Positions 20,501-24,074 of a stretch of 64,000 nucleotides of DNA are shown here, one piece after another. The position numbers were made by a program, and so were the translations under genes. The notes below the pieces were generated by a model. The model ran no database searches, was not told the DNA's origin, and was given only the letters and a program-made list of their open reading frames with translations. Position 1 is the stretch's first letter. The number at the start of each line of letters is the position of its first letter. Source of the DNA: Diaphorobacter sp. HDW4A. GTDB lineage: Bacteria; Pseudomonadota; Gammaproteobacteria; Burkholderiales; Burkholderiaceae_C. The stretch lies in NCBI RefSeq assembly GCF_011305995.1, contig NZ_CP049910.1, positions 6,276,501-6,340,500 of the forward strand, read 5' to 3'.

Positions 20501-20832
20501 CGATTGAAGCGAGCCGTCTGCGCCTGCGCCCGATTCTGATGACCTCGATGGCTTTCATCATGGGCGTGCTGCCACTGGTGCTGTCGACCGGCGCGGGTGC
20601 AGAAATGCGCAGCGCCATGGGCATCGCGGTGTTCGCGGGAATGATCGGCGTGACGGCCTTCGGCCTGTTCCTCACGCCCGTGTTCTACGTGCTGCTCAGA
20701 AAGCTGGCGGGCAACCGGCCGCTTGCACACCACGGCGCGCATGTTGCACCGATTGAGGGTGCTTCAGGCATGCCGTCCGGCGCTGCCTCCGCACAACCCA
20801 TGCTGGCTGCGCCGCGCGGTCATGACGAATGA
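17590..20832 (+). CDS. RND efflux permease (MexF/AcrB-like, HAE1 family)
   Basis: 1080 residues with the two-fold RND layout of 12 transmembrane helices and two large periplasmic loops. It starts MNLSRFFIDRPIFAGVLSVLIFLSG. Helix 4 has the proton-relay pair in VLAIGIVVDDAIVVVEN and helix 10 the essential lysine in GLSAKNAILIVEFA. It uses the proton gradient to expel hydrophobic drugs through the adaptor and outer-membrane factor encoded on either side. Length is normal, with a slightly extended C-terminus rich in His, Ala and Pro. Confidence 0.95.
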   Translation: MNLSRFFIDRPIFAGVLSVLIFLSGLIAMRALPISEYPEVVPPSVVVRAQYPGASPKVIAETVATPLEESINGAEGMLYMGSQATTDGVMTLTVTFKLGTDPDKAQQLVQNRVSQAEPRLPEEVRRLGVTTVKSAPDITMVVHMVSPNGRYDIDYLRNYAVLNVKDRLARITGVGQVQIFGGGDYSMRAWLDPQKVAQRGLSASDVVAAIRGQNVQAAAGVVGASPGLPGVDMQLSLNAQGRLSTTEEFGDIIVKTGADGAVTRLRDVARLELGAADYSLRSLLNNEPAVGMGVFQAPGSNALEISANVRKTMDELNRNMPEGVEYRIAYDPTQFVRASIDSVVHTLIEAIALVVIVVILFLQTWRASIIPLLAVPVSVVGTFAVLHLLGFSINALSLFGLVLAIGIVVDDAIVVVENVERNIEAGLTPREATYRAMREVSGPIIAIALVLVAVFVPLAFISGLTGQFYRQFAVTIAISTVISAINSLTLSPALAALLLKGHHEPKDALTRGMDSVFGGFFKRFNAVFHRGSEAYSGGVRRVIGHKAGMFAVYLALVGATWGLFHLVPGGFVPAQDKQYLVGFAQLPDGATLDRTDDVIRRMGEIVKKNPNVEDAIAFPGLSINGFTNSSNSGIVFVTLKPFAERKQADQSGGAVAGQLNQAFGEIQEAFIAMFPPPPVAGLGTTGGFKLQVEDRASLGYEAMDAAVKAFMAKAYQTPELTGLFTSWQVNVPQLYANIDRTKARQLGVPVTDIFETLQIYLGSLYANDFNQFGRTYSVRVQADAAYRAKAEDVAQLKVRSITGEMVPLSALMKIEPSFGPERAMRYNGFLSADVNGGPAPGFSSGQARDAVERIAAETLPQGIGFEWTELTYQEILAGNSALLVFPLAILLVFLVLAAQYESLTLPLAIVLIVPMGLLAAMTGVWLSHGDNNVFTQIGLVVLVGLSAKNAILIVEFARELEFVGRTPVQAAIEASRLRLRPILMTSMAFIMGVLPLVLSTGAGAEMRSAMGIAVFAGMIGVTAFGLFLTPVFYVLLRKLAGNRPLAHHGAHVAPIEGASGMPSGAASAQPMLAAPRGHDE

Positions 20833-20849
20833 AGCCCCGGGAGAAGAAC

Positions 20850-22274
20850 ATGACAAACAAATTGAACCCTTGGTCCCGTATGGCCCTCGCGCCGCTCGCC
20901 GCCGCGCTGCTGCTCGCTGGTTGCGCGACGGCGCTGCCACCTGTCGAGCCACTGGCGGGCGTGACGCCTCCGGCCCAGTTCAGCACACCGCAGGATCAAG
21001 CCTCGTGGACGACCGCAGCCCCCGCCGAGGCCCAGCCGCGCGGTGAATGGTGGCGCGCATTCGCCGATGCCGAGCTGACCGCGCTTGTCGAGCGTGCAGC
21101 GAGCGTCAACAGCGATGTGCGCGTGGCCGCAGCGCGCCTGGCCGAGGCGCGTGCGCTGCTGCGTTCGGCGGACGCGCAGCGCCTGCCGCAGCTTGGCGCA
21201 TCGGGCGGCGTTGCGCGACAGGCCGGTGCCGACAAGGCCAACGGCATGCAGCCCGCCACGCTGCACACAGCGGGCCTGAATCTGTCATACGAAGTCGATC
21301 TGTTCGGCCGCCTCTCCAACGCCAGCGAGGCCGCGCGGCAAGATACCCAATCGCGCGCTGCGCTGCTGCAGAGCACGCGCCTCATGGTGCAGGCCGATGT
21401 GGCGCAGACCTATCTGCAGCTGCGCTCGCTGCAGACCGAGCGGCAGCTCGTGCAGCAAAGCCTTGCAGCCTATCGTGACACGCTGCGCCTCATCGAGCGC
21501 CGCCACCGCGCGGGCGATGCGGCCGAGCTCGATGTGGTGCGCATGCAGAGCGAGGTTTCTACCACCGAGTCCGAAGCCTTGGCGCTAGAGCGGCAGCAGA
21601 CCACGTTGACCCACGCGCTCGCGGTGCTGGTCGGCGACGTCGCCACCGGCTTCGCGCTGCCCGATGCGACCAGCCAGATCGCCCTGCCCGTGATCCCCGC
21701 CGGCGTGCCCGCCTCGGTGCTCGCCCGCAGACCTGACGTGTCCGCCGCGCAGGCCAATGTGCTGGCCGCACAGGCCCGCGTGGGCGTTGCGCAGGCCGCG
21801 TGGTTCCCGGCGATCTCGCTCACCGGCAGCGGCGGCTTTGCCTCGCCCGATCTAGGCGATCTGTTCAAGTGGTCCGCCAGATCCTGGGGCCTGGGCGCGC
21901 TGCTGTCGCTGCCCCTCTTTGACGGCGGCCAACGTGCCGCGCAGGAAGAGGGCGCCAAGGCCCGCCTCGAAGTCGCGCTGGCCGAGCAACGTGGTCAGGT
22001 GCTCGCCGCACTGCGCGACGTGGAGGACCAGCTCGGCACCTTGCGCTTGCTCCAGGGTCAGGCGGAAGTGCTGGGCCAGGCCGTGCAATCTGCAGAGCGC
22101 GCCACGCATCTGTCCGACGTGCGCTACCGCAACGGCCTCGTGAGCCAGCTCGAACTCCTCGACGCCCGCCGCAACGAACTGCGCAATCGCAGACAAGCTC
22201 TGCAGGTCCGTACCTCGCAATACACCGCCACCATCGCCCTCATTCGCGCACTCGGTGGCGACTGGACTGTGTGA
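20850..22274 (+). CDS. Outer membrane factor lipoprotein (OprN/NodT family)
   Basis: 474 residues with a lipoprotein signal (LLLAGC) and the duplicated coiled-coil/beta-strand pattern of TolC-like channels (SYEVDLFGRLSNASEAARQD, VLARRPDVSAAQANVLAAQARVGVAQAAWFPAISLTG split over the two halves). The start at 20850 follows GGGAGAAG at good spacing; a start at 20829 would overlap the pump gene. It completes the tripartite pump. No further gene follows in the operon; the DnaA-box array comes next. Confidence 0.93.
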   Translation: MTNKLNPWSRMALAPLAAALLLAGCATALPPVEPLAGVTPPAQFSTPQDQASWTTAAPAEAQPRGEWWRAFADAELTALVERAASVNSDVRVAAARLAEARALLRSADAQRLPQLGASGGVARQAGADKANGMQPATLHTAGLNLSYEVDLFGRLSNASEAARQDTQSRAALLQSTRLMVQADVAQTYLQLRSLQTERQLVQQSLAAYRDTLRLIERRHRAGDAAELDVVRMQSEVSTTESEALALERQQTTLTHALAVLVGDVATGFALPDATSQIALPVIPAGVPASVLARRPDVSAAQANVLAAQARVGVAQAAWFPAISLTGSGGFASPDLGDLFKWSARSWGLGALLSLPLFDGGQRAAQEEGAKARLEVALAEQRGQVLAALRDVEDQLGTLRLLQGQAEVLGQAVQSAERATHLSDVRYRNGLVSQLELLDARRNELRNRRQALQVRTSQYTATIALIRALGGDWTV

Positions 22275-22321
22275 GCCTGTGAAGAAGTCCACGGTTATCC
22301 CTGTTCTGGATGGACAGGCGT

Positions 22322-22330
22322 GTGGATAAG
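22322..22330 (+). promoter_or_regulatory. DnaA box 1 (TGTGGATAA)
   Basis: Exact reverse complement of the high-affinity DnaA box TTATCCACA. A TTATCC half-site faces it at 22296, forming an inverted pair. Confidence 0.65.
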
Positions 22331-22445
22331 CCGGTAAAACTGCTGTATGAGCCATGCAAGTGATTGATGTGAAAGGAGTTTCAATCACTTGCTTAATTTT
22401 TGAACAACAGAGCCAGACTTGTGCCCGCCTGCGTTGGACAGGCTT

Positions 22446-22454
22446 GTGGATAAC
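22446..22454 (+). promoter_or_regulatory. DnaA box 2 (TGTGGATAA)
   Basis: Exact match, same orientation as box 1, 124 bp further on. The facing TTATCC half-site is degenerate in this unit. Confidence 0.65.
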
Positions 22455-22629
22455 TGTGAACAAGAGTTGTATGGAGCATGCAAGTCATTGATTTCAAAGT
22501 GATTTGCATGCGCTGCCTAAAAAATGAGCGATATCCAGGCATGCACTGCTCAAATTTCAGGCAACCCGCGCTTTCCGGCAAAACCTCGCATGAATCCTCG
22601 ATTTATCCCTTGTTTTGCTGGACAAGCAT

Positions 22630-22638
22630 GTGGATAAG
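22630..22638 (+). promoter_or_regulatory. DnaA box 3 (TGTGGATAA)
   Basis: Exact match, same orientation, 184 bp after box 2. A TTATCC half-site faces it at about 22604. Confidence 0.65.
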
Positions 22639-22753
22639 CCTGAACTAGTGCTGTACGGTAAGCGCAAGTGGTTGATTTTTAAGGGATGTGCATGCGCTGC
22701 TTAATTTACGGGCAACACTGCACCAGTTATCCCATGCAGCTGCGGACAGACTT

Positions 22754-22762
22754 GTGGATAAG
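22754..22762 (+). promoter_or_regulatory. DnaA box 4 (TGTGGATAA)
   Basis: Exact match, same orientation, again 124 bp after the previous box. A TTATCC half-site faces it at 22728. Confidence 0.65.
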
Positions 22763-22889
22763 CTTGGGCAAGTCTTGTACGGTGGAGGTAAGTGGCTGAT
22801 TTGCAAGGGAAAGTGATGGGCTGCTTAATTCGCGAGCAATCGGGTGAGGCCCGAAGGTCCTTGGTCAGGCTCAAAAGTGGAGCCCGTGA

Positions 22890-23156
22890 CTACTCAGATT
22901 TGAAGCGCTGGGTTCGCCACGCTTGATACGTACGGAGCACGAAATATTCGACTCCGACCAACGCTGTAGCACCAACCATCGCAATGGGCAACCAGAACAC
23001 AGCAAACACCACCAACTGGAATCCCCATTCATGGGCGTGCAGGTCTGAGTGTGGTGGAGGCGGTGTCGCCAGCAATGCCTGTGTTTTGGCGAGGAACCAG
23101 ACAGCAGCCACCGCGACGATGCAGAGAAGCTGTACAACAGCCAATTTACGAAGCAT
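22890..23156 (-). CDS. Small two-helix membrane protein, unknown
   Basis: 88 residues with two likely transmembrane helices (about 5-22, LAVVQLLCIVAVAAVWFLA, and 48-70, QLVVFAVFWLPIAMVGATAL) joined by a His- and Pro-rich periplasmic or cytoplasmic loop, and a basic C-terminus (RTYQAWRTQRFKSE). The composition and codon use look coding. It sits alone between the DnaA-box array and the IclR regulator gene. No family is recognised. Confidence 0.6.
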   Translation of the reverse strand: MLRKLAVVQLLCIVAVAAVWFLAKTQALLATPPPPHSDLHAHEWGFQLVVFAVFWLPIAMVGATALVGVEYFVLRTYQAWRTQRFKSE

Positions 23157-23294
23157 CGATTTGCCCTTTCTGCTTTCTCTTGGTCTGATCTGTATTCAGT
23201 CAAGATCGAGACTGAATGATCTTTCAAGCGGCTGCAACACGGGCAATCTTGTCAGGTGAAGCTCCCTGCCCTGATCATGGCGTCGCGAATCTCC

Positions 23295-24074
23295 TCACCT
23301 CCGCCGCGTCACCATCAATCGCGATATCGCCTGCGATGTCTGCAGCAGCTGCGGCAGCAGTTCGTTTTTCATCATCTCCACACTGGTCCGATTCGATTGC
23401 CCGCTGATGTTGAGCGCGGCGATGATGTTGCCTGCGCGGTCTTTGATGGGGGCGGCGATGGAGGTCAAGCCTTCTTCGAGCTCCTGGTTGAGCAGGCACC
23501 AGCCTTGTTCGCGGGCTTCGCGGATGCGGGTGAGGAGGGTGGCGTCGTCCATCGCGGTGTATTGCGTGTATTGCTTGCGTGGCAGGCGGGCGAGGCGGTC
23601 TTGCAGGTCGTCTTCGGGCAGTCCGGCGAGCAGCACGCGGCCGAGCGAGGTCCAGAACGCGGGCAGACGTGAGCCGACCGAGAGGTTGGTGCTCATGATC
23701 TTGTGGGTGTGCACGCGCAGCACGTAGACGATCTCCAGATCATCGAGCACGGCGGTGGAGCAGGACTCGTGCACCTTTTCCACGAGCTGGTCCATCAGCG
23801 GCTCGGCCAGGTCCCACATCGGCATGGAGGTGAGATAGGCGAAGCCGAGGTCGAGGATCTTGGGCGTGAGGCGGAAATGTCGCTCGTCGCTCGTCACATA
23901 GCCCAGCGTCTGCAGCGTGAGCAGGATGCGCCGCGCTCCGGCGCGGGTGAGGCCAGTCTGGGCGGCCACTTCACTCAGGGTCTGTTCGGGCGCGTTGGCG
24001 TTGAAGGAGCGGATCACTTCCAGCCCTCGGGCGAAGGACTGGACGTAGGTATCGCCGGGGGTGGGTGCTGTCAT
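23295..24074 (-). CDS. IclR-family regulator of the beta-ketoadipate operon (PcaR/PobR-like)
   Basis: 259 residues with an N-terminal winged helix (YVQSFARGLEVIRSF, LSEVAAQTGLTRAGARRILLTLQTLGYV) and a C-terminal IclR effector domain (WDLAEPLMDQLVEKV, LNISGQSNRTSVEMM). Sequence style and position, divergent from pcaI, match PcaR, which activates pca genes when 3-oxoadipate or a related acid is bound. The 213-bp divergent spacer holds a plausible promoter and GAAC repeats. Named regulator identity is inference; the family call is firm. Confidence 0.9.
   Translation of the reverse strand: MTAPTPGDTYVQSFARGLEVIRSFNANAPEQTLSEVAAQTGLTRAGARRILLTLQTLGYVTSDERHFRLTPKILDLGFAYLTSMPMWDLAEPLMDQLVEKVHESCSTAVLDDLEIVYVLRVHTHKIMSTNLSVGSRLPAFWTSLGRVLLAGLPEDDLQDRLARLPRKQYTQYTAMDDATLLTRIREAREQGWCLLNQELEEGLTSIAAPIKDRAGNIIAALNISGQSNRTSVEMMKNELLPQLLQTSQAISRLMVTRRR

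Follow-up and report, generated by a model that had tools for sequence, protein, structure and literature searches.

Four tandem DnaA-box modules in Diaphorobacter sp. HDW4A probably form a DARS-type nucleotide-exchange site

The chromosome of Diaphorobacter sp. HDW4A has four perfect DnaA boxes in a single non-coding stretch far from dnaA, which raises the question of what such an array does. The 9-mer TGTGGATAA occurs exactly on the + strand at 22321, 22445, 22629, and 22753 of the window (the whole 64,000-nucleotide stretch of DNA analyzed), with spacings of 124, 184, and 124 bp, and there is no further exact copy on either strand of the window; single-base shuffles of the 596-bp stretch (20,000, + strand counted) contain 0.004 on average and 2 at most. 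These are the same-orientation boxes of the original prediction, which was also correct that the array is AT-rich (47.5% GC versus 62.9% for the window) and that dnaA is outside the window, at C1:4990584. It was partly correct in describing facing TTATCC half-sites, which are present in three of the four units, with unit 2 having TTGTGCC instead, and its plural hairpins reduce to a single inverted repeat of at least 12 nt, in unit 1 (arms 22356-22367/22381-22392). The genome-wide count that it proposed gives 33 exact TGTGGATAA boxes, versus 16 for a backward-read control. The array is intergenic, lying between an RND outer-membrane efflux gene and two - strand ORFs (identified by Pfam searches of the flanks), and the genes on either side are convergent.

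The repeated unit extends beyond the box. It spans 96 nt, with copies 68 to 73% identical to a reference copy, and each perfect box is one landmark of a rigid module of ∼115 bp that is present in four copies. DnaA resetting is known in detail mainly from E. coli, and the most probable reading of the array, at roughly 70%, is that it is a DARS-type (DnaA-reactivating sequence) nucleotide-exchange site made of four tandem modules. Each module is organized as a three-box core with spacings of 14 and 12 bp, followed at fixed distances by an IHF site and then a Fis-type site (Table 1). Among the roles originally suggested, promotion of DnaA nucleotide exchange thus seems the best supported, given a core spaced as in DARS1 and DARS2 together with predicted IHF and Fis-type sites; that prediction recognized the strong boxes and missed both the weak boxes as parts of a core and the IHF and Fis sites.

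Table 1. Predicted features of the array and its flanks (window coordinates)
Feature	Coordinates	Strand	Basis
RND outer-membrane efflux gene	20829-22274	+	Pfam
Whole array, four putative DARS-type modules in one orientation	22291..22840	+	R1 matches and flank Pfam
Module 1, profile match	22291-22407		R1
Module 1 DnaA box I (TTATCCCTG, 3 mismatches)	22295..22303	+	
Module 1 DnaA box II (4 mismatches)	22309..22317	-	
Module 1 DnaA box III, perfect TTATCCACA	22321..22329	-	
Module 1 IHF consensus, 1 mismatch	22357..22369	-	
Module 1 Fis consensus, exact to both forms	22391..22405	.	
Module 2, profile match	22416-22530		R1
Module 2 DnaA box I (TTGTGCCCG, 4 mismatches)	22419..22427	+	
Module 2 DnaA box II (4 mismatches)	22433..22441	-	
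Module 2 DnaA box III, perfect	22445..22453	-	
Module 2 IHF consensus, exact	22481..22493	-	
Module 2 Fis consensus, exact to both forms	22515..22529	.	
Weak partial match to module 3' (Fis) end in the 184-bp interval, uncertain (4.6 bits, E 1.9)	22539..22565	+	
Module 3, profile match	22599-22716		R1
Module 3 DnaA box I (TTATCCCTT, 3 mismatches)	22603..22611	+	
Module 3 DnaA box II (3 mismatches)	22617..22625	-	
Module 3 DnaA box III, perfect	22629..22637	-	
Module 3 IHF consensus, exact	22665..22677	-	
Module 3 Fis consensus, exact to GNNYRNNWNNYRNNC, 1 mismatch to GNNYANNNNNTRNNC	22699..22713	.	
Module 4, profile match	22723-22840		R1
Module 4 DnaA box I (TTATCCCAT, 3 mismatches)	22727..22735	+	
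Module 4 DnaA box II (3 mismatches)	22741..22749	-	
Module 4 DnaA box III, perfect	22753..22761	-	
Module 4 IHF consensus, 1 mismatch	22789..22801	-	
Module 4 Fis consensus, exact to GNNYRNNWNNYRNNC, 1 mismatch to GNNYANNNNNTRNNC	22823..22837	.	
ORF flanking the array	22871-23227	-	
IclR regulator, second - strand ORF	23295-24074	-	Pfam

Relative to the perfect box (0, -), the weak boxes start at -26(+) and -12(-), giving start spacings of 14 and 12 bp with box I facing boxes II and III; this is the layout of a DARS core, despite boxes I and II of the window modules matching the 9-mer at only 5 to 6 of 9 positions. Scanned with the same box, E. coli K-12 has sites at 2969135(+), 2969149(-), and 2969161(-) in DARS2 and at 813107(+), 813121(-), and 813133(-) in DARS1, both spaced 14/12; the DARS1 core is in bioD-uvrB, and uvrB-ybhK, tried as its location, proved to be the wrong place. 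Primers listed in PMC4585315 for deletion of DARS2 boxes I to III bracket just the three scanned sites, and a passage of PMC5742627 describes DARS1 and DARS2 as sharing one structure, with equal spacing and box I opposite II and III. A scan of all offsets on both strands, anchored on the strong box alone, places -26(+) and -12(-) at the top among 61 dereplicated tandem-type modules with an exact main box (means of 6.00 and 5.85 of 9, against a background mean of 2.25 and standard deviation of 1.03). The next-ranked offsets are +10(-), at 5.28, and +44(+), which overlaps the IHF block, at 5.23. For the DARS reading, the chief doubt concerns DnaA binding at the predicted weak boxes I and II of tandem-type modules.

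The blocks that follow the core are likewise in register, although their frequencies are partly imposed by selection: the pattern TTATCC + TGRACA + box picked out the 100 loci, and only modules scoring >60 bits against a profile spanning the IHF and Fis blocks as well were retained. The first three conserved blocks were in the search pattern, and the later ones only in the profile. Among 82 dereplicated modules, all above that score, the block at +36 is an exact - strand match to the IHF consensus WATCAANNNNTTR in 71; the consensus occurs away from +36 once on that strand and never on the other, and at 0.002 per module in single-base shuffles. Fis-type sites were scored with a stricter form, GNNYANNNNNTRNNC, and with a looser 15-mer, GNNYRNNWNNYRNNC, which we take to be a Fis-type consensus. 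The looser form lies at +70 in 49 of the 82 modules, with 18 matches elsewhere and 0.27 per module in shuffles, and the stricter one in 27, with 20 elsewhere and 0.13 in shuffles, so the Fis assignment rests on position and not on rarity; in the window, the looser form is exact in all four modules and the stricter in two. Both WATCAANNNNTTR and GNNYANNNNNTRNNC are as given in the relevant part of PMC4585315. Information content is 1.84 bits/position at -26..-20 (box I), 1.60 at -12..-4, 1.86 in the main box, 1.55 at +36..+48, and 1.08 at +70..+84, with 0.1 to 0.3 in the spacers measured. A TGTATG block at +23 to +28 from the main box of the tandem type, at 1.56 bits/position, is conserved like the IHF site, and we know of no familiar site that it fits.

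The host encodes the proteins that such sites would use. Fis (NF002517, 129.8 bits, cut-off 122), IHF-beta (NF001222, 145.3 bits, cut-off 115), and IHF-alpha (NF001401, 151.2 bits, cut-off 111) are all present, as are DnaA and Hda, each above the curated cut-off of its best-matching family; the ORF ahead of fis is presumably dihydrouridine-synthase-like. A structured non-coding RNA or terminator array would account for the ability of TTATCC...GGATAA to pair and for a short inverted repeat at the Fis position, but this is very improbable, with no Rfam match above gathering score across 22200-22950 (the single match is 15.9 bits versus 35), a covariation term of -0.06 kcal/mol over 20 modules, and changes on both sides in 2 of 12 pairs.

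The module is conserved in close relatives. Of 60 genomes searched, including that of the window (G000), 10 match, among them all five others of the same genus. Box spacing there is 124/184/124 exactly in three of the five (G002, G004, and G005) and partial in two, G001 retaining 124/184 (three boxes) and G003 having two boxes 124 bp apart on a short contig. The arrays are only 67 to 84% identical between species with the register kept, so the distances have been held while the intervening sequence diverged. The 6.8-Mb G000 genome has 8 modules at 3 places, a lower bound as 150 of 915 candidates were scored. Locus C (L085; G000:C1:933935-934345, - strand), with relatives in G001 to G005, appears to be a second DARS-type array with three modules (76, 76, and 55 bits), and its units, those of the window array (array A), and their relatives align without gaps over 130 bp. 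A lone decayed module (L267; G000:C1:1669271-1669375) scores 38.9 bits and has an imperfect main box.

These copies also bear on the original suggestion of a dispersed, REP/MITE-like repeat family that happens to hold a DnaA box. The units are indeed tandem and diverged, with relatives at two further genome loci, but so few copies, conservation of 1.1 to 1.9 bits/position at the protein sites versus the low spacer values, and a register that persists between diverged species leave such a family with hardly any likelihood; few parts of the module are better conserved than the box, and the suggestion is largely refuted.

Tandem arrays are concentrated in one group of genera. A pattern scan of a species-genome collection returned 100 stretches, 80 listed by title, and those listed are mostly from Acidovorax, Paracidovorax, Diaphorobacter, Giesbergeria, Simplicispira, Extensimonas, and allies; single matches outside that group (Herminiimonas, Zoogloeaceae, Comamonas, Stutzerimonas, and others) score ∼17 to 46 bits. 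A profile built from earlier-found units yields 168 distinct modules of >60 bits, 136 with an exact main box, and 82 remain after dereplication. Counting the window, there are 66 loci with modules of >60 bits, of which 61 have at least two (two in 30 loci, three in 24, four in 6, and seven in 1) and 5 have one recognized module; the longest array, with seven modules, is in Paracidovorax wautersii (L175). All 102 neighboring pairs are in the same orientation, and their distance varies from 123 to 244 bp with clusters at 124-125, 134-138, 172-173, and 184 bp, the first two classes being about one helical turn apart. A distant blastn search (E up to 0.01) of plasmid and phage collections gives no match.

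DnaA, IHF, and Fis each act as transcription regulators, and the array could be a promoter or regulatory region through which they control adjacent genes. The uniform orientation of neighboring modules fits this, but the window array sits between convergent genes, and its neighbors change: the IclR gene adjoins the array in G001, G002, G004, and G005 and the efflux gene in G002 and G005 only. Outside the genus, the 9 window flank genes (sought at ≥40% identity in stretches of up to 8 kb, often one-sided) were not found beside arrays save for a 41% match in L147, and regulation of neighbors is accordingly improbable.

A broader search reveals a second form of the module. Among 200 genomes of the family, which we take to be a Comamonadaceae-type family within Burkholderiales in the broad GTDB sense (the order searched below), at least 82 match R1, representing 60 of 141 genera. 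Of 20 loci fetched, 19 being weaker R1 matches from other genomes and one from G000, 15 form a wide type, in which the strong box is box II and is accompanied by box I at -14 and box III at +12, which is the E. coli arrangement; an example is CTATCCACC attgc TGTGGATAA ctt TGTGAACAA. Left out of the set are L251 and L253, which have their facing site at -26 and lack an IHF match, as well as L265, L266, and L267 (the last from the window's own genome). In 8 of the 15, the R1 alignment starts at about the main box, which leaves box I at -14 unselected there. In the offset scan of the 15, +12(-) and -14(+) rank highest after the main box (6.13 and 6.00), reaching at least 6/9 in 11 and 12 modules, respectively, and the tandem and wide types therefore both read I-14-II-12-III. 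All 15 have an IHF-like site at +38, scored without regard to its last base, so that box III and IHF are 26 bp apart versus 36 in the tandem type, a difference of about one helical turn; in L265 and L266 this distance is 37 and 26. Only 2 of the 15 match the looser Fis form exactly at +72, but all have its end letters G and C, 14 apart.

A second model, R2, built from the 15 wide-type modules and used at E≤1e-4, extends the range further. At least 213 of 300 order genomes match, covering 108 of 135 genera, compared with 0 of 300 for a reversed-column control; these and the other genome counts, the control included, are lower bounds because part of the candidates was scored (per genome, 17 for R1 in the family, 12 for R2 in the order, 12 for the control, and 14 for the class). 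In 28 of the 30 best order loci, the box at -14 reaches 6/9 in 26 and that at +12 in 24, a recovery that is not independent as both positions are in R2, and box I, at 7.04 of 9, comes closer to consensus than the 6.00 of the training modules. L268 and L278 are omitted here as tandem-type, L286 and L292 are mis-anchored yet counted, and L283 equals L284 over the stretch printed. Of the 28, 3 have the IHF-like site at +38 and 15 have the looser Fis form at +71/72, so what is shared across the order is the DnaA core together with a Fis-like element; a good IHF consensus is mainly a feature of the window's family and is mostly lost beyond it. At class level, at least 117 of 274 genomes match, many over the core only. 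Five genomes (G446, G417, G351, and G312 of f22, and G481 of f32) have 7 to 9 R2 matches each, suggesting amplification in other families too. R2 does not act as a mere oriC detector: in a comparison with ORFs of at least 200 aa from L073-L075, no origin-region proteins were found beside the L269-L297 modules save for weak matches at L291 and L293 (25 to 30% identity), and the trio-like repeats near these modules are confined to the far edge of L273 and L277.

The principal competing reading is a datA-like or titration site that binds ATP-DnaA and lowers free DnaA or stimulates its ATP hydrolysis. The array resembles datA in that its strong boxes all point one way and successive ones are separated by an IHF site; E. 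coli datA boxes 2 and 3 share orientation, are 162 bp apart, and have an IHF site between them, and R2 touches datA weakly (E 0.0077). According to passages of PMC10380432, minimal datA consists of boxes 2, 3, and 7 around one IHF site and promotes DnaA-ATP hydrolysis, without a facing box I at 14 bp and without a Fis site, so the conserved facing box of the 14/12 core and the Fis site of the modules are foreign to it. The box-IHF-box order is shared, but spacing and the extra facing box differ; moreover, it is the distance between modules that varies while the geometry within them is fixed, and five loci have a single recognized module. A datA-like or titration role is less likely on this evidence, although the scarcity of exact Fis forms in the wide type (2 of 15) shifts some weight toward it from the DARS reading.

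Chromosomal position offers a further comparison. The cumulative skew of G000 is flat, lowest at ∼5.155-5.18 Mb, with another sign change near 2.38-2.42 Mb. Adjoining the minimum are two oriC-like loci ∼13 kb apart, G000:C1:5151491-5151825 (L074) and 5164924-5165124 (L075), each with several perfect boxes in mixed orientation and a DnaA-trio-like TACTACTA run near a TTATCCACA box; dnaA is ∼160 kb from the pair, matching box clusters are 11 to 13 kb apart in G002, G004, and G005, and the pair is possibly a bipartite origin. The window array is not itself oriC, being ∼1.1 Mb from the skew minimum and having no TACTACTA run by eye; perfect TGTGGATAA boxes are common to both, whereas the mixed orientation and TACTACTA runs occur in the oriC-like loci only. 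Locus B (L078; G000:C1:5971574-5971907) and its relatives L079-L084, in 7 genomes of 3 genera, have two perfect same-orientation boxes 325 to 334 bp apart and adjoin an ORF that presumably resembles hemE; IHF-like sites and a TGTGCACAA lie between the boxes or next to them. At 0.20-0.25 of the half-chromosome in 4 genomes, locus B is a datA-like candidate.

With the point midway between the two oriC-like clusters as zero, array A, locus B, and locus C of G000 lie at 0.352, 0.251, and 0.696 of the half-chromosome. The corresponding fractions are 0.339/0.241/0.699 in G001, 0.352/0.223/0.685 in G005, and 0.121/0.198/0.890 in G002, with origins set from homologous box clusters and not from skew, so the relative placement agrees in three of the four genomes and G002 departs; of the six genus genomes, G003 and G004 were left out as they are in many contigs. 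In E. coli, DARS2 is at 0.412, datA at 0.201, and DARS1 at 0.659, using what we take to be the oriC coordinate. For E. coli, PMC5010248 reports that relative position is conserved.

The DARS reading would work as follows. ADP-DnaA on strong box III and weak boxes I and II would meet head-to-head across I/II, IHF and Fis would bend the DNA and keep the complex assembled, ADP would depart, and the apo-DnaA released would rebind ATP. The site would thereby supply ATP-DnaA for the next round at oriC, with four modules multiplying the dose of exchange activity, and its target would be the DnaA pool of the cell and not an adjacent gene. A wider proposal, which we advance tentatively and at clearly less than even odds, is that reactivation by compact sites (a 14/12 core and a Fis-like element, with strong IHF in the Comamonadaceae-type family) is general in beta-proteobacteria, and that tandem arrays of 2 to 7 modules, with the strong box shifted from II to III, arose in the Acidovorax-Diaphorobacter clade. 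The non-oriC classes B, A, and C, at ∼0.2, 0.35, and 0.7 of the origin-to-terminus distance, would then match datA, DARS2, and DARS1, and the DnaA cycle of both lineages may thus be set alike by gradients of gene dosage. If the modules work, DnaA rejuvenation would occur in most of the order genomes sampled, DARS-type timing of chromosome copying would extend beyond the enterobacterial model, and a natural series of one to seven modules, with IHF a helical turn nearer or further, would make dose, phasing, and position testable.

Comparison with the known sites both supports and qualifies this assignment. R2 matches the E. coli DARS1 core (E=2.2e-5 in 134 kb) and R1 does not; DARS2 is matched by neither, and R1 finds no match in DARS1, DARS2, or datA. 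DARS1 has the identical 14/12 core and, according to part of PMC5742627, works without IHF or Fis in vitro, a difference from the window modules, in which sites for both are conserved. A sentence in that 2017 review names beta-proteobacteria, which counts against calling DARS there wholly unreported, and titles and abstract openings of the open-access PMC literature yielded no paper about DARS in Comamonadaceae or about DARS arranged in tandem. Portions of PMC4245941 (Kasho 2014) describe Fis and the DARS2 core as conserved specifically among gamma-proteobacteria related to E. coli, and DARS2 relatives are compared in gamma-proteobacteria in part of PMC8682772; PMC13220808 is a further paper cited beside the latter and PMC10380432.

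DARS2 is a close counterpart in overall plan. It has three boxes with I opposite II and III at 14 and 12 bp, IHF and then Fis on the box III side in the same order as in the window modules, and a non-coding location between origin and terminus, as for the array, whose host encodes both IHF and Fis. However, DARS2 has one core where the array has four tandem modules, two IHF sites (IBS1-2) where each module has one, and IHF and Fis at about +67,+83/+119 from box III versus +36/+70, and site positions matter according to a passage in PMC4245941. The strong box is III in the window modules and II in both DARS1 and DARS2. With these different distances, the array is not classed as a DARS2 orthologue, and its tandem organization and shifted strong box point instead to a new DARS variant.
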